NCBI RefSeq assembly: GCF_029978005.1
Contig: NZ_JARKOZ010000058.1
Coordinates: forward strand, 31,539 to 95,538
Direction: 5' to 3'
From: Solidesulfovibrio sp.
Lineage (GTDB): Bacteria; Desulfobacterota; Desulfovibrionia; Desulfovibrionales; Desulfovibrionaceae
Length of the DNA stretch: 64,000 nt
Numbering within the stretch: position 1 is the first letter of the stretch; the number at the start of each line of letters is the position of its first letter. Shown one piece after another: positions 14,419 through 27,951 of the stretch. Below the pieces are notes generated by a model. The model was given only the letters and a program-made list of their open reading frames with translations, made no database searches and was not told the DNA's origin. A program made the position numbers and the translations under genes.

Positions 14419-15585
14419 CTATTTCCCCTGGGGCAGGAAGTACTTGCCGTCGCGCAACGTGCCGAGCCTGCGCACCGCCTCGCCCAGGCCGCGCAGGGTG
14501 ACGTAGGCCACCTCCTTGTCCTTGGCCAGCAGGGGCAAGAGCGCCTTCCACTGTTCGTTGGTGAATTCGTCCGGGCCGTGGGAGTAGAGGCTGAGCATGC
14601 CGCCCACTTCTTTGGCCTTCTTGAGGAACGCCTCGACCTTTTCCTTGAATTCCGGGCTGGCCGGGTCCGTGCCGAAGGCGTCGCGGGGCTTGACGGCGTA
14701 GATGCGGTAGAGGTCGTAGCCGCCCGGCGCGCCCAGGGCGGCGTTGCCAGCCGTGCCCACGCGGCCGCAGTCCATGCCGAGCTCCGCCGCCGCGGCGCGC
14801 GACACGGCGTCGCTGACCAGGAACGGAAAGACCATGGACGTGGCCGGATGGTCGGGCAGGCCGGCCTTGATGTCCTCGAGCGCCCCGGCCATCTCGTAGC
14901 GGGCGCTGGCCGTCCCGTCCACGAACAGGGGCACCAGGCCGTTTTTGAAAAAGACGTCCACCTTGTCCTTGGCGGCCAGAAACCGCGAGCGGATGTTGGC
15001 GTAGTAGGGGTCGCCGAGCTCCGCCGTCACGCCGCGCACGTCGCAAAGCGCGTCCACGAGCTGCTTGAGGCTCGGGGTGCGTCCTTCCTCGGACAGGTCG
15101 AAGGCGGCCGCGGGTTCGGATTTGTCGTCCACGAAAAGCCGCAGCGTGGGCTTCTCCCCATCGATGACCAGGAAGGCGGATTTGGCCGCCGGATTGAAGT
15201 AGCGCAGCCGGATGACCGGTCCCGGGGCCACGGACACGTGGTCGCGGGTGTGGTTGGCCACTTCGTGGCCGGCGGCGATGCGCCGGGACATGAGGGCGTA
15301 ATCCTCGGGCGTGGCCTTGGCCGTGTTGAGCGCCAGGGTGGTCTTGACGCCGAAGGCGTCGGCGTCCTCGGACAGGCGCGACCAGAGGTCGAGGTTCGGC
15401 AGGTCGTCGATGACGATGGCCACGTAGGCCCGGGGGCCGGTTCCGGGCAGGGGGACGCCGCGCGTGGCCGGGGAAAGGCCCTGGGCCAAGGCGGGAACGG
15501 CCTGGGCCGCCAGGACGAGACAGGTCAAAACGAGGCCGCCGGCCAAGGCGGCGAAACGGATGCGCACGCGGACTTCTCCCTTCAT
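14419..15585 (-). CDS. Secreted polysaccharide deacetylase (NodB-like)
   Basis: Signal peptide; AIVIDD and HEVANHTRDH (HxxxH) metal-site motifs; start overlaps upstream stop (ATGA). Confidence 0.78.
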   Translation of the reverse strand: MKGEVRVRIRFAALAGGLVLTCLVLAAQAVPALAQGLSPATRGVPLPGTGPRAYVAIVIDDLPNLDLWSRLSEDADAFGVKTTLALNTAKATPEDYALMSRRIAAGHEVANHTRDHVSVAPGPVIRLRYFNPAAKSAFLVIDGEKPTLRLFVDDKSEPAAAFDLSEEGRTPSLKQLVDALCDVRGVTAELGDPYYANIRSRFLAAKDKVDVFFKNGLVPLFVDGTASARYEMAGALEDIKAGLPDHPATSMVFPFLVSDAVSRAAAAELGMDCGRVGTAGNAALGAPGGYDLYRIYAVKPRDAFGTDPASPEFKEKVEAFLKKAKEVGGMLSLYSHGPDEFTNEQWKALLPLLAKDKEVAYVTLRGLGEAVRRLGTLRDGKYFLPQGK

Positions 15586-16628
15586 TTTCTGAGGCTGGAC
15601 AGGAATTCGAAAAGCGACGGCGTGTTGCCGCCGAGACGCCAGACGGCCAGCCCGGCGAAGCCCGCCTGGCGGCCGGCCTGCCACAACGTGCCCAGGGTCT
15701 GGCCGTCGGCGTGCCAGACCTCGTGGTCCTTTCCCGTGCCGTCGCGGTAGCGGGCGACGAGGTAGCCGTCCCCGGCCGAGCGCGTCGGCGCGGCGGCCTG
15801 CTGCGCCAGAAGCGCCCGGGCCTCGGCCTCGGTCAGTTGCCTGGCGGCCTTGGGGCCGGTCCAGTCGAAGCCGCCCGTGGCCAGGGCCAGGGTCGTGGAC
15901 GAGAGCGCCCCGAGGGCGCGCAGGGCGGCGGCCTGCTCGGCCAGAAAGGCCGGCGTGGCCTTGGGGCCGGGGCCGGAATGGAAGCCGTAGAGGTTGTAGC
16001 CCATGAGCACGTATTGCGGCCCGGGCGGCAGGGGGCGCGAAAGGTAGCGGCGCTGGGGCTGAAGCAGCACGGACAGACGCAAGCCCGAGGCGTTGGCGCG
16101 TTGCCAAAGCGCGGCCACGAAGTCCAGGAAGGCCGGCCAGTCCGCCTCGGCCACGTTCTCGTAATCGATTTCCAAGCCCTGGAAGCGGCTGTCCCTGGCC
16201 AGGGACAGCAGGGCGTCCAGGTGTCGGCTTCGGGAGTCGGGTGTGGCCAGCAGCCGGGAGACGAGCCCAGGATCCTTGAGCTTGTTGCCCTTGCCCGAGG
16301 GCGTGACCACGTCGTTGACCACGGTGAGGTAAGCCGGCGTGCCGCCGAAGACGGCGGCGGCGTCGCGGCCGAGGACGCGGGCCCAGTCCGGGGACAGGGC
16401 CGGTCGGTCCTTTTCGTCGAAGCTGGCGGAAAAGACGCGCACGGAATCGAAAAGTCCCTGGTGGGCGCGCCATTCGGTCAGGCCCCGGGCCAGGTCCCAG
16501 TCGGCGATCCAGGTGGTGATCTCCGTGCCGGCCGCCGTTGCCCGGGCCGGCGCGACGAGAAACAGGGCGGCGCAGACCAGGGCCGCCGCCAGGGGGAGTC
16601 CCCGGCAGGCGGCCTGGATGATCTTCAG
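15582..16628 (-). CDS. GH18-like secreted glycoside hydrolase, apparent non-ATG start
   Basis: GLEIDYENV resembles the GH18 catalytic DxxDxDxE region; signal-peptide-like LPLAAALVCAALFLVAPARATA; no ATG/GTG/TTG in frame at the N terminus. Confidence 0.72.
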   Translation of the reverse strand: MKIIQAACRGLPLAAALVCAALFLVAPARATAAGTEITTWIADWDLARGLTEWRAHQGLFDSVRVFSASFDEKDRPALSPDWARVLGRDAAAVFGGTPAYLTVVNDVVTPSGKGNKLKDPGLVSRLLATPDSRSRHLDALLSLARDSRFQGLEIDYENVAEADWPAFLDFVAALWQRANASGLRLSVLLQPQRRYLSRPLPPGPQYVLMGYNLYGFHSGPGPKATPAFLAEQAAALRALGALSSTTLALATGGFDWTGPKAARQLTEAEARALLAQQAAAPTRSAGDGYLVARYRDGTGKDHEVWHADGQTLGTLWQAGRQAGFAGLAVWRLGGNTPSLFEFLSSLRK

Positions 16629-19600
16629 AATATGTAGCTGATGCCGGCCCATGCTTCGCTGAGGTTGTAGGTGGGGGTGCTGAAGTAGGAGTACTTGACC
16701 GAGAGCTTTAGCCGTTCCCGCATGGTGATGTCCATGCCCGCGTTGGCCCGCCAGATGTTGCGCCAGTCGTTGTTGCGGTCGCGCGACGGGCCGTAGCCGG
16801 CGCTGCCGTTGATGTTGAACCAGCGGGTCGGGGAATAGCCGAAGGAGCCGTAGGCCAGGTGGGTGGCCAGGTCCAGGGGGGCCCAGTACTGGGGCGGGTT
16901 GCGGTCGCTGTTGGCGAACTGGAAGGCGTAGCCCAGGGAGAACAGGGGAAATTCGAACAGCCGGGCCAGCAGCCGGCCGTCCACGGAGCTCGTGTTGTTG
17001 CCGTCGGTGCGCGAGATGCCGTGGAGGTTGAGGAAGAGGTCGTAGTAGTCGAATACCCGGTTGTGGGTGAAAAGGCTCAGCCGGTTGGCCATGATCTGAT
17101 CGGAGATGGCCTCCACGGTGTCGATGCGCTCGTGGGCGGCCTGCAGGTCCCAGGTCCCGTCCACGGGCAGCCCCTTGGGGGCCAGGGGGCCGTGCACGGT
17201 GGCCATGCCGTTGATCCAGGTCGACGGGCCGGAGTCGGTGTTGGTGAGCTGACCCTGGGCTTCCAGCCAGAATTCGGGGTGAAAGAACCAGCGCGCCCCC
17301 ACGGTCAGGTCCTCGCCGTCGAGGTGTCGGGTGCGCCGGGAGTGCAGCACGTCGTAGACGTCCGAGGCGGCGAGGGAGCCGTTTTCCAGGGTGTTGGAAA
17401 TGGCCTTGAGCATCTTGCCCCGGCGCTGGAAGCTGTCCAGGGACCACTGGATCCGGCCGGTCCTGGCGAAGACCAGCAAGTCGTCGCGCAGGTGGACGTC
17501 GCCGCCCAGGCCAAACCACCCGTACTGGCGGTTGTCGCTGTCCCACCAGGTGGTGGCGCTGGCCTCGACCCTGGGGCGGGTGCGCAGCTCGGCCCGGCCG
17601 AGCTGGACGTGGGTGCGCGGGGCGTCGGGGGCCTCTTCCACGGCCTTCTCCGCCCGGGCCACGGCCACCGGGTCGTCGTGCATGTAGTAGGCGTTGACCG
17701 CCCGGTGGTAGGTCAGGTCGGCCGGGTTGACCTTGAGGTCGGCGGCTTCCTTGAAATAGTTCTCGGCCTGTCCGAGCTGCTCCTGCCAGGAATAGACCTT
17801 GGCCAGCTCCAGTGACACCTGACGCATGGGGTTGGCCTGCTTCAGGTAGCGGCCGAGTCCCGCCGCGTCCAGGGACGGGGACACGGCCTTGGCCGCGATG
17901 CGCCGGGGATCGGACACGGGCGTCCAGTAGCCCTCGGGGGTGAGCTCGAAGGCCAGTGGAAAGGCCTCGGCCACGGCCTTGGCGTAGCCTTCCCGGCCGG
18001 CGGCGTCCGCGCCGAGGGCTTCTATGGGCGCATCTCCGCCGGGATAGAAAAAGACCGGCCGGGCGCTGCCGAGGATCTCGCTTCGGGGGTCCAGGGCCTT
18101 GAGCCGGGCGGTCAGACGGGCGGCCGCCGCGCCGGGGTCGGCCGCGTCCCCGGCGACCGCGCCGCCGGCGGTCCAAAGGCCCGTGGGCCGGCCGTCGGCG
18201 CTCGTCACCGTGGGCGGCCGGTGGTCGGTCAGGGCCAGGCTCCAGCGGCCCGTGCCCACGAGCCGGCGCACCTGGGCCAGGTCCGGCAGGTAGGGCGTGC
18301 CGTCGGCGAGGGATTCGCCGCCCACCACCAGCAGGGCCTTGCCGCCAACCTCGGCCAGGAGCGCGTCGATCTTGTCGAGAACCGGGCCGGCGGTGCGGTC
18401 CACCAGCAGGGCCACGCGCGGGGCCAGGTCGACGTCGCGCTTCTTGCGGGCCTCCTCGCCGGCCGGGCGCGCGGCCAGCTCGGCCACGTCGAGGAACCGT
18501 CCACCGGCCGCGGCCACGGCGCGCAGGTGCTCGGCCAGCTGGGACAGGCGCACCTTGCCGGCGGCCTCGGCGTCGCGCACGTCGGCGTAGTAAAGGCACA
18601 GGACAGGGCTGCCCGGGCCGAAGTCGCGAATTTTCTCCAGGGTCGGGAAGGCCGGCCGGTAGTCGTGGTCCGCGGCCGCGGCCACGGCGTAGTGCAGGCG
18701 CAGGGTGGCGTTGTCCGGGGCCACGGTCATGAGGTTCTGGGCGGCCTCGTAGGCCTTGGGCGCGTCGCCCGTGTACTGGTGGATGTTGAAGATGCCGCGC
18801 AGGGCCGGCAGGTAGACCGGGTTTTTCTCCAGCAGCCCCTTGTAGTGGGCCATGGCCGCCTCGTACTTCTCCTGGTCGAGCAGCGTCTGGCCGTACATGT
18901 TCTGGATGGTGACCGAGTCCGGGTCCTGTTCCAGGTAGCGCCTGGCGTAGCCCTCGCAATGGGCCGGGTCCTTGGCGAATTCGGCCGCCTCGGCGGCCTG
19001 GCGCAGGAGTTCCTTGTCGTTGGGGTTGCGGGCCAGGCCGATCTCCGCCTGGCGGATGGTTTCCTGGTACTGCCCGAGCGACAGCAGGGCCTCGCAGACC
19101 ACGCCGCCGAGCAGCGGCGAGGCGGAAGCGGCGTAGGGCGCGGACAGGGCGGCCACGGTCTCGGCGTAGCGGCTCTGGCGGTTCAGCGCCAGGCCGAGGC
19201 CGGACAGGTAGTCCAGGGAATCGGGGTTGACCGCGAGCATGGCCCGGTACAGGGCCTCGGCCCCCTTGGGGTCGCCGAGGTCCAGGCGTGCGGCGGCCGC
19301 GGCGCTGAAGACGGCCTTGTCGCCCTTGGCCGTCTTGTCCTCGAACCAGGCGTCAACCCGCCGGGCCTCGGCGAAGCGGTCGGCGGCCACGAGCAGGTTG
19401 ACCACCCGAAGCCGTAGCGTCGCGTCGGCCGGGGAGAGGTTCACGGCGGCCTGGAACCGGCTCAGGGCGGCGGCCTTATCGCCGTCGAGGAGGGCGAACT
19501 CGCCCAGGGCGTACTCGCGGTCGAAGGGCGGGGCCTTGGCCATGGCCGCGTCCAGGAGCTTTCCCGCTTCCGCGTCCTGGCCCTGCCGTTTTTTTACTAA

Positions 19601-21490
19601 AGCCAGATAGAGCATGGCCTGGGTCTGGCCGGGATCGGCCGCCAGCGCCTTTTGCAGGAACGTCGCGGCCTCGTCGAGCTTGCCCGCGTTCCAGAGCGAC
19701 CGGCCCGCGCCAGCCCAGACCGGGGCCATGGCCTTGGCCGAAACGCCTGTGGCCCAGGCCGGGGGCGTGAGGACGAAATAGGCCGCCGCGAACTGGTAGT
19801 CCACGATGGTGCGGGCCAGGCGCAGGTAGACCTCGCCGGCCAGGGCCGGGGTCAGGACGGCCCGGGTCAGGCGGCCGTCGGCGTCGAAGCCGGCCACCGG
19901 GGCCTGGCCGAGGCCGCCGGCCGGCAGGGCGGCCAGGGCGCGCAGGCGGTTGAGCGCCGCCTGGGACTTGCCGTCTTGCAGTTCGGCCATGGCCAGGAGC
20001 AGGTCGGGATAGGGGCCGGCCGGCCCCTGGGCCAGCACCTTGCCCACCAGATCCCAGCGGTTGCCGGCGGCCAGGGACCAGGCGAGCCCGAGCGGCGTCA
20101 CCTCCGGGGCGTGGGCGCGCAGCAGCGCCATGGCCTCGGCCGCGCGGCCGGTCTCGACGAGCAGCGGCACGATGCGGGCCACCAGCGGATCGCTGGCGGC
20201 CAGGCCGTCGTCCAGGGACTGCTTCCAGAAGGACAGGGCCATGTCCTGCTTGCCGGCGGCCCACAGCCGCCAGCCGATGTCGCGCAGGATGGCCGGGCGC
20301 ACGTCCAGGCCTTCGATGAGCCCCTCGATCCGGCCGATGCAGCTCGCCGGGTCGCTTTTGGGGCCGATGCGGCCGACCCAGGCGTCGGCCAGTTCGATCA
20401 GTTGGTCGCGGAAGGGGCGGCGGTTCTGGATCTGGCGGAATTCCCCGGTCGCGGCGGTCAGGTCGCCCTTGCGCCAGGCATCCATGGCCAGGCCGAAGTG
20501 CAGGCCGTCCTGGTCCGGCGCGTCGCGCAGCTTCTCCTCGAAGGCCTCGGCGGCGGGCCCCTGGCCCGAGGCCCGCAGGGCGAAGAGGTACTGGCCCTGG
20601 TAGACCGGGCTTTTCGGATTGAACTGAAGGGTCTTTTCCAGGAACTGCGCCGCCCGGACGTAGTCCTTGGAGGCCAGGCGGGCGTCGGCGATCCAGCCGG
20701 CCCAGAGCCCCACGTCCGGGGCGTTGCGCCACTGCGTTTCCCAGAGGTCCGCGGCCGCGCCGGGCTGTCCCTGGTTGTAGCGCACCCAGCCGAGCTCGCC
20801 CGTGACGGCCACCGGGTCGTAGCCGTTGGCCAGGGCCTTGTCGAGGAGCGCCTGGGCCAGGTCCAGGCGCTTGTCGGCCAGGGCTTCCTTGCCGGCGAAA
20901 AATTGCAGGGCGGCCACGACGTCCTTTCGCGCTGGAATGTCCGGGGCGTCGGCCAGGGCGCGCAGGGAGCCGGGGTCGCCGGCGGCGTAGCCGGCGGCCA
21001 GGGCCTTGACGGCCTGGCCGTCCGGCCCGGCCGGCTTCCAGGCGGCCAGGAACCGGGTCAGGTCGGCCTTGGCCTTGGGCCGGGACAGGAGGTCGATGAC
21101 GAGCGCGCCGGCCATGCCCTCGCCAAGCCCCGCCACATACTGCGAAAGGCGCGGCTGCCCGCCCTCGCCCAGGCGCAGCAGGGCCGAGAGTTCGAGCACG
21201 TTGGTTTCCAGGTCCCCTGGCTCCACCCGGATGGCCACGGCCAGGGTCTCCAGCGCGCCGGCGTAGTCCTTGGCCGCGATCTGCAGGGAGGCCTTCTGTC
21301 GCCACAGGGGCGGATAGGCCGGGTCCTGGGCCAGGGCCTGGGCGACGAGTTCCATGGCCTGGGCCGTCTGGCCCCGGGCGGCGGCCTGCTGGGACTGGCG
21401 CAAAAGCGTCACCACCGAGGCGTCGGCGGCCGAGGCGGCGGTGGGCGCGGCCAGGACGAGCGCCATGAGCAGAAGCAGTGTCTTGGTCAT
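16625..21490 (-). CDS. Giant TPR protein with deacetylase-like insert and C-terminal outer-membrane beta-barrel (PgaA-like exopolysaccharide porin)
   Basis: Signal peptide, many TPR repeats, middle segment with PVFFYPGGDAP, C-terminal barrel-like region ending in aromatic F (GISYIF). Confidence 0.78.
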   Translation of the reverse strand: MTKTLLLLMALVLAAPTAASAADASVVTLLRQSQQAAARGQTAQAMELVAQALAQDPAYPPLWRQKASLQIAAKDYAGALETLAVAIRVEPGDLETNVLELSALLRLGEGGQPRLSQYVAGLGEGMAGALVIDLLSRPKAKADLTRFLAAWKPAGPDGQAVKALAAGYAAGDPGSLRALADAPDIPARKDVVAALQFFAGKEALADKRLDLAQALLDKALANGYDPVAVTGELGWVRYNQGQPGAAADLWETQWRNAPDVGLWAGWIADARLASKDYVRAAQFLEKTLQFNPKSPVYQGQYLFALRASGQGPAAEAFEEKLRDAPDQDGLHFGLAMDAWRKGDLTAATGEFRQIQNRRPFRDQLIELADAWVGRIGPKSDPASCIGRIEGLIEGLDVRPAILRDIGWRLWAAGKQDMALSFWKQSLDDGLAASDPLVARIVPLLVETGRAAEAMALLRAHAPEVTPLGLAWSLAAGNRWDLVGKVLAQGPAGPYPDLLLAMAELQDGKSQAALNRLRALAALPAGGLGQAPVAGFDADGRLTRAVLTPALAGEVYLRLARTIVDYQFAAAYFVLTPPAWATGVSAKAMAPVWAGAGRSLWNAGKLDEAATFLQKALAADPGQTQAMLYLALVKKRQGQDAEAGKLLDAAMAKAPPFDREYALGEFALLDGDKAAALSRFQAAVNLSPADATLRLRVVNLLVAADRFAEARRVDAWFEDKTAKGDKAVFSAAAAARLDLGDPKGAEALYRAMLAVNPDSLDYLSGLGLALNRQSRYAETVAALSAPYAASASPLLGGVVCEALLSLGQYQETIRQAEIGLARNPNDKELLRQAAEAAEFAKDPAHCEGYARRYLEQDPDSVTIQNMYGQTLLDQEKYEAAMAHYKGLLEKNPVYLPALRGIFNIHQYTGDAPKAYEAAQNLMTVAPDNATLRLHYAVAAAADHDYRPAFPTLEKIRDFGPGSPVLCLYYADVRDAEAAGKVRLSQLAEHLRAVAAAGGRFLDVAELAARPAGEEARKKRDVDLAPRVALLVDRTAGPVLDKIDALLAEVGGKALLVVGGESLADGTPYLPDLAQVRRLVGTGRWSLALTDHRPPTVTSADGRPTGLWTAGGAVAGDAADPGAAAARLTARLKALDPRSEILGSARPVFFYPGGDAPIEALGADAAGREGYAKAVAEAFPLAFELTPEGYWTPVSDPRRIAAKAVSPSLDAAGLGRYLKQANPMRQVSLELAKVYSWQEQLGQAENYFKEAADLKVNPADLTYHRAVNAYYMHDDPVAVARAEKAVEEAPDAPRTHVQLGRAELRTRPRVEASATTWWDSDNRQYGWFGLGGDVHLRDDLLVFARTGRIQWSLDSFQRRGKMLKAISNTLENGSLAASDVYDVLHSRRTRHLDGEDLTVGARWFFHPEFWLEAQGQLTNTDSGPSTWINGMATVHGPLAPKGLPVDGTWDLQAAHERIDTVEAISDQIMANRLSLFTHNRVFDYYDLFLNLHGISRTDGNNTSSVDGRLLARLFEFPLFSLGYAFQFANSDRNPPQYWAPLDLATHLAYGSFGYSPTRWFNINGSAGYGPSRDRNNDWRNIWRANAGMDITMRERLKLSVKYSYFSTPTYNLSEAWAGISYIF

Positions 21491-21494
21491 GGCG

Positions 21495-23462
21495 CTACCT
21501 TTTCACCTCGTAGGAAACGGCCGTTGCCTCGGGAGGAGCGGGGAGGCGGAAGAGCATGCGCGCGCGGTCGTAGCGGTTCCGAAGCGTCGCCATGTCCGGG
21601 GCGTCCTCGGCGGGCGCGACGTCGAAGAGCAGCCAGTCCGGCGTCAGGAGCGGCCCGGCGGCCAGGCGCGCCGCTTCGGCCTGAGACAGGCGCAGGACCA
21701 CGGCGAAGCCTTTGGCCCGGAGATTCTTGATGCACGGGGAAAGGGCGGCGAGGTCCGGAAAGTTGTCCAGGGACAGCACCAAGCCGCGCAGCAGCTTGGC
21801 GAAGACCATGGCCGCCGGAGCCTTTTCCACGAAGGCGACGGTTTCCATGACCTTGGCCGCGTCGGCCTCGGGCATGTCCAGGTAGACGCCGACGCCGGCC
21901 GCGGACACGGCCACCAGGGCGGCGGCGTCGCCCACCGGGTCGGAGGCGAGGTTCGTGGCCGGCAGGATCATGCCGGTCAGGGTCCGGGCCTCGTCCAGGG
22001 CGGCGTCGCGCACGGTCGGCAACTGGACCCAGCGCGGCGCAAAGGTGGTCAGCCGCAGGTCCGTGAAGCTGGTCGGCTGTTGCTCCTTGTCGGAAAGGGC
22101 CCCCAGGGCGAAGTAGCCCCGGCTGGTGTCGGCCGTCAGGGGAATGGGATAGGGGCAGGCGCTTTTGCCGTCCACGGAAAGGAGCAGCCGGTTGGCCTTG
22201 ACGCAGCCGTCCAGGCTTACGGGGCCGTCGTGCTCCAGGGGCAGGACGTACTGGAGGATGGTGTTGAGGGAGGAACCGTTTTTTTCCTGCACCACCACCC
22301 GGTCCTGGGTGATCTGCAGGCGCACGAAAGAGCCCGGCCCGCGGTAGCGCAGGTAGACGAGGCTCGCGCCGCCCGGTTGGGGATCGACCTTGACCTGGCA
22401 CAGGAAGTCCTCGAACCCCTCGGAGCCCCGCAGCCGGGCGAAAGGGTCCACGCCGGCCGGCGCGGTCAGGGTCAGGCGCTGGCCGTCGGCCGCGACGTCT
22501 CCGGCCGCGACCTGCCACAGGCCCTGGCGCACGGAATCGGAGAAGTCCAGGTAGCGCGACCGGGGCAGGCGGGAGTCGATCTCCAGGAGCAGCCGTTCGG
22601 CGGTCCAGTCCGGGGCCACGGCCAGGCGGGTCAGGGCGTGGGGATCGTTCTCCCGGGAATTGTAGGCCTCGCCCACCCGGGTGAAGGCCACGGGAAAGGT
22701 GGCCTTGAGGTCCTTCTCGAGAGGATCGGCCAGGGCGGCGGGCAGGCTTACGCCGAGGGTGTTGGCCGGCACGAAGACGTAGCCCAGGGGCGGGACGCCG
22801 GCGGCCTCGTCGATGGACCGGTAGGCCAGGCGGAAGTCCTCGGCCGCCCGGGCTTCGAACTCCTGCTGGGTTTCGACGGACTTGCCGTCGGGGCCGGTCT
22901 GGAGCGCGGCCAGGTAATGAAAGGCGGCGGTTTTCCCGGCGGCGGCGGGATCCTCGGCATGGTAGCCCATGGAATCGACGTCCCAGAAGGGGCTGCGCGC
23001 GATCTTGCCCAGCTCGTCGGCGCGCACGAAAAACCGGTTCCAGCCCGTGAGGTGGCCGCCGAAAAGGTACAGGGAGGCGTGAAAGCCCGTTTCCTGGAGC
23101 ACGGGCTGGCTGAAGAGCACGCTGTCCTTGCGCCCGCCTTCGAACATCACATACAGGGCCTTTTCGGGCAGGGGCTTGTCGGCATTGTAGAAATCCCGCA
23201 AGTCGGCCGTGGCCACGGTGCGAAAGCCGGCCTTGGCCAGGGCCGTCAGGTGCTCGCGCAGCCGGGCCTTGGTCACCAGGGCGTTTTCGCGCTCCTCCAT
23301 GGTCAGGCCGCCGTAGGAAATGGCCACGAACCCGTCGCGCTGGCTCCAGGCGGCCCGGTCCTCGGCCGGAGGAGCGCCGCGCCGGAAGGTCGTCTGGTAG
23401 ACGGCCAAGGCGACGACGCCCAGGATGGCGTACTGGAAGGCGTAGCGCAGGAACTTTCTCAT
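21495..23462 (-). CDS. PgaB-like periplasmic/membrane-anchored polysaccharide deacetylase-fold protein, probably degenerate
   Basis: N-terminal TM; FVAISYGGLTMEE, YVMFEGGRKDSVLFSQPVLQETGFHASLYLFGG aligns to NodB fold with DDG replaced by EGG. Confidence 0.65.
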   Translation of the reverse strand: MRKFLRYAFQYAILGVVALAVYQTTFRRGAPPAEDRAAWSQRDGFVAISYGGLTMEERENALVTKARLREHLTALAKAGFRTVATADLRDFYNADKPLPEKALYVMFEGGRKDSVLFSQPVLQETGFHASLYLFGGHLTGWNRFFVRADELGKIARSPFWDVDSMGYHAEDPAAAGKTAAFHYLAALQTGPDGKSVETQQEFEARAAEDFRLAYRSIDEAAGVPPLGYVFVPANTLGVSLPAALADPLEKDLKATFPVAFTRVGEAYNSRENDPHALTRLAVAPDWTAERLLLEIDSRLPRSRYLDFSDSVRQGLWQVAAGDVAADGQRLTLTAPAGVDPFARLRGSEGFEDFLCQVKVDPQPGGASLVYLRYRGPGSFVRLQITQDRVVVQEKNGSSLNTILQYVLPLEHDGPVSLDGCVKANRLLLSVDGKSACPYPIPLTADTSRGYFALGALSDKEQQPTSFTDLRLTTFAPRWVQLPTVRDAALDEARTLTGMILPATNLASDPVGDAAALVAVSAAGVGVYLDMPEADAAKVMETVAFVEKAPAAMVFAKLLRGLVLSLDNFPDLAALSPCIKNLRAKGFAVVLRLSQAEAARLAAGPLLTPDWLLFDVAPAEDAPDMATLRNRYDRARMLFRLPAPPEATAVSYEVKR

Positions 23463-25174
23463 GATTGGTCCCCGGTGGTCTGGGTGGCCGCCCGGGGCTG
23501 GGGAGCGTCCTTGGCCGGGACCTTGGCGTCATGGCTCGAGGGCCGCGTACCCCACTCCGACTTCCAGAAGGTGAGCACGGCCCACACGATCTGCCACAGC
23601 AGCACGAAAAGGTAGAAGAAGCAGAACGGCACGCCGTAGAACCACAGGTTGGAGCGCTTGATGAAGAGATAGGACGTGCACATGAGCATGCTCATGACGA
23701 ACACGCCCGCGATGTACATGACGGGCCACACGCCGTAGACCAGGGGCATGAACACGAAGGCCCGCAGCACGATGACCGGTCCCAGAAGCGGCAGGATGAA
23801 GCCCAGGTAGAAGGAGATGGCCATGAAGGGCTCCTTCTTCCACATGAAGGCGCAGGCCCGCAGGGTCTCGCGCAGCCAGGAACGCTTCCAGCGCATCTGC
23901 TGGCTGTAGAACTTCCGGTAGGACGAGGGCACGATGGTGTGGGTCACGGCCGTGTGCTGGTACACGGCGTCGTGGCTGCCGAGCACGTAGTTGGTCAGGC
24001 TCCTGTCGTCGCCGAAGGTGGCCGGTCGGCCGAGGTAGGTCTGGTGCTCCCAGGCGTCGAGGCAGCGCATGAGCACGTCCCGGCGGTAGGCGGCCAGGGG
24101 GCCGGACAGGCAGGTCACGGCGTCGAAGACGCTCTCGGCCGCCTTGAAGATGCGAAAGCCCACATAGTAGCGCACGGCCTGCATGCGCGTGAGCGCATTG
24201 GTCCACTTGTTCTCCACCTCGCAACGTCCGGTGGATGCGCCGATGCGCGGATTTTTCAGCGGCTGCACCACCTGGAGGATGGAGATCGGCTGCAGGAAGC
24301 TGTCGGAATCCACGAACACGAGCACGTCGCCCTTGGCCAGGCGCGCGCCGGCGGCCATGGCGTGGCGCTTGCCCCGGTTGCGGGGAAACGCGTGGATGAC
24401 GAGCCGCTCGCCCACCTCGTCGTAGATCTTGGCCTTGACCGCCTCGAGGGCGGTCAAGGACCCGTCGGTGCTGCCGTCGTCCACCACGATCACTTCCAGG
24501 AGCTCCTCGGGATAGTGCTGGTTGAGGCAGCCGCGTACGGTGCGCTCGATCCATTCCTCCTCGTTGAAGCAGGGAATGACGACGCTCACGCTGGGGGTGA
24601 AGTCGGGATCCACGGGGAAGGGGCGGTACAGGGCGGCGAAGAAGAAGCGCGACAAGAGGTAGAACAGGGCGCACAGGCCGTAGAGGAAGACCGGCACGTC
24701 GAACCAGAAGTAGAAGACGCTCTCCTTCTTGAGGAACCACACGCCGATCAGGGTCAGCATGACGCCGAGCAGCGCCGTAGCCTCGAAATAGCGCCAGCGG
24801 CTGCGGCGCAGGCATTCGGTGATGGTCTTGTCGAACCGAAAGGCGGCGTTTCCGCTGGAGACGTCCAGGCGCACCACGGTGGCCGGCAGCTTGAGGTAGG
24901 ATTCGTAGCCCTCGGGCAGGGTGCCGGCGCTCAGGAAGAAGCGCAGCATGGCCTTCTGGCCCACGCGAAGCTTCTTGTCGGGCGTAAGCAGCATGCCGCC
25001 CTGGGAAAGGTTGACGACGTTTCCCGAGCAATAGCGGTACTTGCCGTCCTCGGAATAGACGTCGGCCTTGCCCTCGGAGAAATAGCGCGTGTCGTGGGCG
25101 CGTCGCGTGGTCCCCTTGGAGGGGATGTCCGGCAAAAAGCGGCGGTCGGGCTTCTCGCGGGGGAAGACTTCCAT
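23459..25174 (-). CDS. PilZ domain-GT2 glycosyltransferase (exopolysaccharide synthase)
   Basis: N-terminal PilZ (RRAHDTR..., NLSQGGM); GT2 motifs VIPCFNEEEWIE, DDGSTD, VDSDS, GDDRSLTNYV, QQMRWKRS; multiple TM. Confidence 0.85.
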   Translation of the reverse strand: MEVFPREKPDRRFLPDIPSKGTTRRAHDTRYFSEGKADVYSEDGKYRYCSGNVVNLSQGGMLLTPDKKLRVGQKAMLRFFLSAGTLPEGYESYLKLPATVVRLDVSSGNAAFRFDKTITECLRRSRWRYFEATALLGVMLTLIGVWFLKKESVFYFWFDVPVFLYGLCALFYLLSRFFFAALYRPFPVDPDFTPSVSVVIPCFNEEEWIERTVRGCLNQHYPEELLEVIVVDDGSTDGSLTALEAVKAKIYDEVGERLVIHAFPRNRGKRHAMAAGARLAKGDVLVFVDSDSFLQPISILQVVQPLKNPRIGASTGRCEVENKWTNALTRMQAVRYYVGFRIFKAAESVFDAVTCLSGPLAAYRRDVLMRCLDAWEHQTYLGRPATFGDDRSLTNYVLGSHDAVYQHTAVTHTIVPSSYRKFYSQQMRWKRSWLRETLRACAFMWKKEPFMAISFYLGFILPLLGPVIVLRAFVFMPLVYGVWPVMYIAGVFVMSMLMCTSYLFIKRSNLWFYGVPFCFFYLFVLLWQIVWAVLTFWKSEWGTRPSSHDAKVPAKDAPQPRAATQTTGDQS

Positions 25175-25384: not shown

Positions 25385-26390
25385 TCACCCGGTGGGTCCC
25401 CCGGGCCTGCGCCGGGCAGCGAAAAGAAAGCAAGAGGGGTGCCAGGACGGCGAGAGCGGCGACGCCCGAGGAGAGGCCGGCATTTCCGCACGAGCGGCCG
25501 CTCCCGCGGCGGCCGGCCGGGTGAGCCCGGGCGAGCCGGGAGTCAGGGGGCTGACCTCGGTCACGTTGGCGCTGTATTTCGCGCCGGTGAGGTCCACGGG
25601 GCTTCGCGGCTGGGTCAGGCAATGGCTCAGGGTCACGCTGGCGGCGGCCGTCTCGCTCCAGACGAGGTAGTCCGCGGCGTAGCCGTTGGCCATGAGCAGG
25701 CAGTTCGTGAGCTGCACGCCGCCGGGGATGGCGGCGCCCGAGGAGCTGTAGAGCACGTCGCCGGAAAAGCCGGCCGGCAGGCAGTTGTTGAACTGCACCC
25801 GGGAGGCCGTGTGGGGCCGGACGTAGCCGAACTGCATGTCCGCGAACAGGCAGTAGTCGAACGTCACGGGCGAGGAACCGGCGTCTAGGGTGACGATCTG
25901 GCCGTCATCGGTGCCCCGGCGCGCGCCGGCGATGGTGCAGCGCGAAAAGCCCGCCCCGCCCGAGCCCACGGACAGCGGCTGCATGCCCGGGCCGAAGGTG
26001 CACTGTTCGAAAGTCGGCCCGCCGCCGCTGATCCTGACGTTGACGGTATGGGCGTCGGTGTTGGCCGGGCCGTCGAAGACGATGCACCGCCAGGTCGTGT
26101 GCGCGCCGACGAAAGCACGGGCTGCCCTTCCACGCCGCGGATGGTCACCAGGCCGTTTTTGCCGCTCGCGGCGCTGCCCGTGACGGTGACGCCGCGGTGT
26201 AGGCCTCGAGGATTTCCCCGGTGTAGGCCCCGCCGGCCACTTCCTCCGTGTCGCCCGAGCCGGCGGCGTCCACGTAGATCGTGGCCGCCAAGAGTGGGCC
26301 GGGAAGACAGGACAAAAGCGTCAGAGCAGGGAAAAGGAGGGAGCAGAGCCAACGGATGGGGCCGCGCGGGAGCAAGGGACGTGAACGCAT
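25385..26390 (-). pseudogene. Secreted right-handed beta-helix repeat protein, frameshifted
   Basis: Signal peptide ORF 26145-26390, middle segment in another frame, and C-terminal beta-helix ORF from frame of 25385-25984; at least two frame changes. Confidence 0.6.
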
Positions 26391-26548
26391 GTCGGATATC
26401 CTGATAATGGGTATCCGTAACCGGGGGAAGATGTCGAGGCAAGCGTGCAGGGCGCGAACGGACGGTGCGGAAAGGGGAAGGCATTGTCGCGCCCCACCGG
26501 GGGTCCCCTCCCGTCGGGCGCGGCGAGGAGGGAAACTGTTTTATTTCG

Positions 26549-26697: not shown

Positions 26698-27951
26698 CTA
26701 TTCCCGCCGGCGCGGCAGGGGCAGCACGAGGTTGAGGAGCACCCCGGCCACGCCGGCCAGCCCGATGCCCTCCAGGCGCAGTCCGCCCAGGGAGAAGGTC
26801 ATGCGCCCCATGCCGAGCACGATGATGAGCGCCACGATGACCATGTTGCGCGGCTCCATGAGGTCCGCGCCCTCCCGCACCAGGGAGTTGAGGCCGACCA
26901 CCATGATGGCTCCGAATAAAAGCAGCATGATGCCGCCCATGACCGGGGTGGGGATGCTCTGGAGCAGCGCCCCGAGCTTGCCGACGAAGGCCAGGCACAA
27001 GGCGGTCAGCGCCGCCCAGGTCATGAGCGCCGGATTGTAGATCTTGGTCAGCGCCACCGCGCCCGTGACCTCGGCGTAGGTGGTCAGCGGCGGTCCGCCC
27101 AGGCAGCCGGCCAGGGCCGTGGCCACGCCGTCGCCGAGAAGCGACCGGTCCACGCCCGGGTCTTGCAGGTAGTCGCGGCCCGTCACCTGGCCGACGGCCA
27201 GGATGCCGCCGAAATGCTCGATGATGGGCGCGATGGCCACGGGCACGATGACCACCATGGCGTCCAGGGAAAACGACGGCGCGACGAAGTGGGGCACGGC
27301 GAACCAGGGCGCGGCGGCCACGGCGGAGAAATCCACCATGCCCAGGCACAGGGACAGCACGTAGCCCGCGCCGATGCCGCTCAATATGGGCAAAAGGCGC
27401 AGCATCCCCCGGGCGTAGATGGCCACGGTCACGGTCACGGCCAGGGAGAAGAAGGACACGAGCATGGCCGTTTGTTCGGGAAAAAGCACGGCCGCGCCGT
27501 CGCCGGTCTTGCCCATGGCCATGGCCACGCCGACAGGAGCCAGGATGAGGCCGATGACCATGATGACCGGCCCGGTGACGATGGTGGGCAAAAGCCGTTG
27601 GAGAAAGCCCACGCCGCGCGCCCGGATGACGCCGGCGGCGACGGCGTAGACCACGCCCACGGCGGCCAGGGCCCCGGTGGTGGCGGCGACGCCGTAGGTT
27701 TTGACGCTAAACATGATGGGCGCGATGAAGGCGAAGGAGGAGCCGAGGAAGATCGGGATGCGCCCCTTGGTCAGCAGCTGGTAGAGCAGGGTGCCGCAGC
27801 CGGCGCAGAAAAGGGCCACATTGGGATTGAGGCCGGTCAGGAGCGGCACCAGCACCAGCGCGCCGAAGGCCACGAAAAGCATCTGCGCGCCCACGGGAAT
27901 GTCCCGCGCCCGCAACTGGTAGTCGCTTCCCTCCCGGGGTGTCGTCGCCAT
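26698..27951 (-). CDS. uraA: Uracil/xanthine permease (NCS2 family, UraA-like)
   Basis: NCS2 motifs (LFCAGCGTLLYQLLTKGRIPIFLGSSFAFIAPI, GGPPLTTYAEVTGAVALTK). Confidence 0.9.
   Translation of the reverse strand: MATTPREGSDYQLRARDIPVGAQMLFVAFGALVLVPLLTGLNPNVALFCAGCGTLLYQLLTKGRIPIFLGSSFAFIAPIMFSVKTYGVAATTGALAAVGVVYAVAAGVIRARGVGFLQRLLPTIVTGPVIMVIGLILAPVGVAMAMGKTGDGAAVLFPEQTAMLVSFFSLAVTVTVAIYARGMLRLLPILSGIGAGYVLSLCLGMVDFSAVAAAPWFAVPHFVAPSFSLDAMVVIVPVAIAPIIEHFGGILAVGQVTGRDYLQDPGVDRSLLGDGVATALAGCLGGPPLTTYAEVTGAVALTKIYNPALMTWAALTALCLAFVGKLGALLQSIPTPVMGGIMLLLFGAIMVVGLNSLVREGADLMEPRNMVIVALIIVLGMGRMTFSLGGLRLEGIGLAGVAGVLLNLVLPLPRRRE

Follow-up and report, generated by a model that had tools for sequence, protein, structure and literature searches.

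Locus and gene order

Between positions 14419 and 25174 of the window (the whole stretch of 64,000 nucleotides from Solidesulfovibrio sp. that was analysed) lie five minus-strand open reading frames (ORFs), which an earlier reading of the sequence, termed the original prediction below, had described as a tightly packed operon and a candidate uncharacterised exopolysaccharide system under cyclic di-GMP (c-di-GMP) control. The five ORFs were confirmed, and neighbours overlap or are separated by gaps of a few bases. The operon starts with a synthase of 571 aa (23459..25174), in which a PilZ domain precedes a glycosyltransferase family 2 (GT2) domain. Its stop (23459) overlaps by 4 nt the start (23462) of the gene for a membrane-anchored, PgaB-like protein of 655 aa (21495..23462). 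After a gap of 4 nt follows the gene for a 1621-aa tetratricopeptide repeat (TPR)/barrel protein (16625..21490), whose end (16625) is overlapped by the gene for a GH18-type hydrolase (15582..16652, start ATG at 16652). The stop of the latter (15582) is overlapped by the start (15585) of the last gene, which encodes a NodB-like deacetylase (14419..15585). Hydrolase and deacetylase are both predicted to be secreted.

All five genes were found in the same order and on the same strand in 13/13 Solidesulfovibrio congeners. Since the order is identical at protein identities of 57-86%, the arrangement is not due to chance. It is also present, whole or in part, in four further genomes of the family, and orthologues of the synthase occur in all 13 congeners and in 77 aligned loci.

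PilZ-GT2 synthase

The PilZ domain was assigned to residues 29-124 of the synthase (Pfam, 2.4e-5) and is followed by the GT2 domain (5e-30), which agrees with the N-terminal position given in the original prediction. The predicted layout is a cytosolic PilZ domain (~24-125), two transmembrane (TM) helices, the GT2 core and three further TM helices. The core contains the motifs DDGS, DSD, GDD and QQMRW, and the motifs of processive GT2 enzymes (DXD, GDD/TED, QxxRW) are kept in the 77 aligned loci. Of the curated families, NodC gave the best score (200 bits) and PgaC reached 120 bits; the best relatives of solved structure are hyaluronan synthases (HAS). The PilZ motifs in the window read RRxxxxR ... 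NLSQGG, the canonical arginine spacing being RRxxxR.

Periplasmic and outer-membrane proteins

The second protein matched the PgaB N-domain (NCBIfam 5e-10; PDB 3vus 2e-6). It consists of a TM helix (residues 2-26), a deacetylase-fold domain (~40-300), a CBM66-like beta-sandwich (~315-480) and a C-terminal alpha/beta domain. The same parts are seen in an AlphaFold2 (AF2) model (pLDDT 86), in which Foldseek matched the PgaB N-domain 3vus (TMt 0.78) and CBM66 (TMt 0.75). The deacetylase fold that had been proposed was recovered, but a working deacetylase was not: the metal site is lost in 46/46 aligned PgaB-like sequences. The window protein reads FEGGRKD: at the position of TFDDG, the genus has FEGG throughout, and sequences from other phyla have FEDG or FEEG. 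In place of the His motif, which is gone, W-E-x-G-[ST]-N-G-Y is mostly found. The pocket nevertheless looks retooled and not decaying, because Glu108, Trp160, Gly166, Glu197, Arg205 and Arg279 are invariant in 46/46 sequences and Arg111, Asp113, Asn234 and Arg262 nearly so. Judged by its motifs, the protein is no active metal-dependent deacetylase; it is a repurposed deacetylase fold carrying a CBM66-like domain.

The TPR-porin named in the original prediction was likewise recovered. The 1621-aa protein (TPR match 6e-29) is built of TPRs, a degenerate deacetylase-like domain (~961-1202), further TPRs and a 16-strand outer-membrane barrel. An AF2 model of residues 961-1621 (pLDDT 83) contains the deacetylase-like domain, the TPR stretch and the barrel, and its best Foldseek matches were the PgaA barrel 4y25 (TMt 0.76), BcsC and PelBC. 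The deacetylase-like domain matched PplD, PgaB and IcaB; in the TPR protein of a distant relative (G358), TFDD and the His residues are retained.

As had been stated, hydrolase and deacetylase are separate proteins, with the GH18 and NodB domains in distinct ORFs. The hydrolase matched the PDB chitinase 5jh8 (8e-11) and also YaaH. Its catalytic DYE (IDYEN) is invariant within the genus, and D-Y/F-E is kept in aligned relatives; the active site is of the DxxDxDxE type, with Gln taking the place of the first Asp in the protein of the window. The last gene matched Polysacc_deac_1/NodB (3e-5). Its product keeps the metal triad (VIDD, HTRDH) and the motif-5 His (SHG) and has a large internal insertion; DD, HxxxH and the motif-5 His are invariant in 14 orthologues. 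The canonical R-P motif 3 (Arg) is not evident. On motif evidence, it is the only one of the genes keeping the deacetylase metal triad. Upstream of the synthase lies the remnant of a sixth gene (25517..26411, minus strand), a beta-helix and NodB fusion which is frameshifted and has its NodB half missing. The gene is intact in several congeners (740-811 aa), directly before the synthase.

Distribution of the cassette

When 84,980 species genomes were searched with the alignment of the synthases, 367 relatives were obtained, and the best 80 of them were retained. In nearly all of these best 80 of 367, the gene for a full-length PilZ-GT2 synthase has the PgaB-like gene behind it, with GH18 next. 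The phyla sharing this core include Firmicutes, Synergistota and Desulfobacterota, along with others. The five-gene synteny proposed as a check is real within the genus, but the system is not peculiar to the organism; a genus-only system, which a search for PgaB-like relatives had suggested, was overturned by profile searches and the species-genome scan. The PgaB-like gene lies downstream of the synthase in every locus whose contig extends far enough. Four loci seemingly without it were an artefact of the distance filter, the gene adjoining or overlapping the synthase end. GH18 genes were counted in 37/38 monoderm Firmicutes, 20/20 Negativicutes and 6/6 Desulfobacterota.

The outer-membrane barrel gene tracks diderms: 24/24 diderm loci have one (15/15 in Negativicutes and 9/9 in other diderms), as against 0/35 in monoderm Firmicutes. 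In the 9/9 other diderm loci, the barrel is of the type of the window protein (P0003 type). In the Negativicutes barrel proteins inspected, the sequence shows barrel-like strands and ends in an aromatic residue; those of Sporomusa also have TPRs. Similarity to the window protein (BLASTP, E 0.04) is weak and confined to the TPR level; for this reason, two separate barrel recruitments are preferred. As the census loci are mutually related, the fractions are not independent trials; at least two gains underlie the barrel result.

PDB matches to spore enzymes, the nearest relatives of GH18 being YaaH/YdhD and the deacetylase being PdaB-like (with a PdaB family score above the cut-off for L105), would fit a Firmicute cassette serving a spore or wall glycan, the Desulfovibrio version then being a transferred wall system. 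We regard this as very improbable, since the cassette is also found in Selenomonas, Dialister, Megamonas and Gram-negative phyla, an outer-membrane barrel accompanies it at every diderm locus observed, and the synthase tree (quick method), with Negativicutes nested among Clostridia, follows phyla. Proteins with at least two NodB-type stretches are encoded in Firmicute operons (L105 7156-8601, L142 14814-16481, L109 7786-9924 and L110 7239-9899). In L105 and L142 the first copy has TFNG or TFGG where TFDD would stand, so that pseudo-deacetylases may be a recurrent feature of the family.

Of the cassettes in monoderm Firmicutes, 33/35 have a gene for a TviB-type nucleotide-sugar dehydrogenase in their vicinity, as do 15/15 of those in Negativicutes. 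The Firmicute proteins score 428-451 bits for TviB, under the curated cut-off of 592. The genome of the window encodes a TviB-like UDP-HexNAc (N-acetylhexosamine) dehydrogenase with 50% identity to the one of the Brevibacillus operon; the gene (C113 1781-3082; L175/L177) has no linkage to the operon and lies on another contig. Beside the Thermodesulfovibrionales cassette in L139, a beta-helix protein resembling pectate lyases and hyaluronate lyases is encoded (18655-20367), with a further GH18 gene and a deacetylase-like gene also close. The polymer is probably HexNAc-based, as suggested by the NodC/HAS-type GT2, GH18 and NodB sequences, and the Firmicute TviB-type gene together with the lyase-like neighbour in L139 hints at a uronate content in some lineages. 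The original prediction is supported in that the operon is of the synthase-dependent exopolysaccharide kind; a product of the pga or pel type was too specific, because the relatives in Firmicutes suggest a polymer that contains uronate.

Upstream of the operon, the window contains a uracil permease-like gene (26698-27951, minus strand), which is conserved there in the genus and occupies the same place in L033, L037 and L044; in L037 and L044, an upp-like gene comes before it. This conserved neighbour may reflect chance synteny or uridine triphosphate (UTP) supply.

Proposed control by c-di-GMP

In 8/8 Sporomusaceae-type (Negativicutes) loci scanned, a c-di-GMP-I riboswitch was detected 74-192 nt upstream of the first gene of the operon, with scores of 59-80 bits (cut-off 35). 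The riboswitches are located at L110 2309-2391, L123 4195-4280, L131 4043-4130, L141 2238-2323, L153 4163-4248, L160 4194-4280, L163 2306-2391 and L168 4443-4528. None was found at the scanned Selenomonadaceae-type, Clostridia, other Firmicute and Gram-negative operons, the exception being one elsewhere in L117 (17464-17556, minus strand), on the opposite strand downstream of the Paenibacillaceae cassette. The genome of the window has 32 GGDEF matches. The riboswitches on related operons, as evidence independent of the PilZ domain, strengthen the case for c-di-GMP control of the window operon.

Several observations speak against a c-di-GMP-controlled system as proposed here. A riboswitch was also sought in the window and none was found. 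The arginine spacing of PilZ deviates from the canonical one by a single residue in Desulfovibrionaceae and by up to ~40 residues in Firmicutes. RiGT2, a synthase with a canonical-looking PilZ domain, does not bind c-di-GMP (PMC10374906). The Pfam match of the window hydrolase to GH18 (0.0015) is under Pfam's cut-off. Finally, the TviB-type gene is linked in 0/9 non-Firmicute diderm loci, so that the polymer may differ between Firmicutes and Desulfovibrio-type loci. The RiGT2 precedent and the RRxxxxR spacing, taken with the NodC/HAS similarity, GH18 and NodB, would suit a chitosan/chitin-like or hyaluronan-like capsule in which PilZ is merely structural and c-di-GMP irrelevant. This alternative is considered unlikely: the second PilZ motif, (D/N)xSxxG, is conserved in all 77 aligned loci, the canonical RxxxR spacing occurs in L126, L139 and L143 (a longer loop being present elsewhere), and eight related operons carry the riboswitch.

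Comparison with known systems

The operon shares with the poly-N-acetylglucosamine (PNAG, pgaABCD) system a GT2 synthase, a PgaB-type fold, TPRs with a 16-strand outer-membrane barrel (4y25) and the c-di-GMP logic. It differs in that an N-terminal PilZ stands in place of PgaD, the PgaB-like protein has a CBM66-like domain and no metal site, GH18 and NodB are separate proteins, and the TPR protein holds a degenerate deacetylase domain. PgaD (PF13994), for which the original prediction had seen no obvious candidate, was absent genome-wide in the genome of the window and was detected in the E. coli control. A divergent pga operon, in which a PgaC homologue makes poly-beta-1,6-GlcNAc that is processed by PgaB, could explain the PgaB N-domain fold, the PgaA-like barrel and the PgaC similarity. 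It is judged highly unlikely, however, since the PgaC equivalog score of 120 bits compares with a cut-off of 422 and is exceeded by NodC, PgaD is missing, the PgaB deacetylase motif (TFDDG ... His) is not found in the window protein and no fused hydrolase domain was recognised, PilZ is at the synthase N terminus, and a canonical-looking pgaABCD-type operon exists in another genome of the phylum (L092 6022-12680).

NfrBA-YbcH of E. coli is the polysaccharide system forming the phage N4 receptor, for which UDP-ManNAc has been proposed (PMC8669469). It also combines a GT2 under local c-di-GMP control with a TPR-porin in one operon; in contrast to the window operon, its GT2 has a C-terminal MshEN domain, and no hydrolase or deacetylase-fold partners are described (PMC8669469). 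MshEN was not found on the window GT2, for which Pfam gives PilZ and GT2 alone. In cellulose systems (bcs and clostridial ccs), PilZ is likewise fused to GT2, and diderms have the TPR/barrel exporter BcsC, but the PilZ domain of BcsA is C-terminal, BcsB is the partner and the hydrolase is GH8 or GH5 (PMC7710045). The window synthase, with its N-terminal PilZ, scored 41 bits for CelA against a cut-off of 699. NodC and class I hyaluronan synthases are its nearest catalytic relatives but are without PilZ, PgaB-like partner or exporter. Listeria Pss is a Firmicute polysaccharide operon under c-di-GMP control, in which the receptor is the separate GGDEF-type I-site protein PssE and not a fused PilZ (PMC4125290). 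Pss was excluded as a home for the operon on account of this separate receptor, and PNAG, cellulose and Nfr because each differs in at least one defining part.

No description of this gene combination and no close described homologue were found in the open-access literature, which is consistent with the operon having been called uncharacterised. Because the search covered mainly open-access journals, subscription journals largely not being included, "undescribed" is provisional.

Proposed mechanism

In our assessment the operon probably encodes a synthase-dependent exopolysaccharide secretion system that is switched on by c-di-GMP. This rests on computed features: gene order, domains, catalytic motifs, the loss of the metal site, the barrel fold, the tracking of diderms by the barrel gene, and the riboswitches on related operons. 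From these we infer c-di-GMP binding, the substrate, the direction of transport and the role of each periplasmic protein, as follows. c-di-GMP would bind to the N-terminal PilZ domain and open the NodC/hyaluronan-synthase-like GT2, which would polymerise a HexNAc-based chain and thread it across the inner membrane. In the periplasm, the membrane-anchored PgaB-like protein would receive and guide the chain, and the TPR/16-strand barrel protein would export it. The GH18 enzyme may cut the chain, either to control its length or to clear chains that have become stuck, and acetyl groups would be stripped off by the NodB-like enzyme.

Significance

The operon is best read as belonging to a family of its own among synthase-dependent exopolysaccharide systems, controlled by c-di-GMP and making a HexNAc, possibly HexNAc-uronate, polymer; it is a real, conserved and, provisionally and on present evidence, undescribed variant of this mode of secretion. 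A wider reading, to which we assign about even chances, is that it represents a separate, ancient secretion class beside cellulose, PNAG, Pel, alginate and Nfr. Such a class would span monoderm and diderm phyla, would have taken on an outer-membrane exporter on two or more occasions and would make an N-acetylhexosamine/N-acetylhexosaminuronate polymer. It would be under double c-di-GMP control (PilZ on the enzyme and, in some lineages, a riboswitch on the mRNA), with a conserved dead deacetylase as periplasmic chain guide.

If this is right, a c-di-GMP-controlled matrix polysaccharide common to many environmental and gut bacteria has been overlooked, the genera concerned being Paenibacillus, Brevibacillus, Clostridium, Sporomusa, Selenomonas, Pelosinus and Solidesulfovibrio. 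For sulfate reducers, whose biofilms are held to be polysaccharide-poor in the accessible part of PMC8586430, which names no such operon, a concrete polysaccharide gene set would be provided. The family would also offer a testable case for the retention of an enzyme fold across phyla after loss of its active site and, because diderm Firmicutes and Desulfobacterota have unrelated barrels on the same core, for a monoderm secretion core gaining an outer-membrane exporter.

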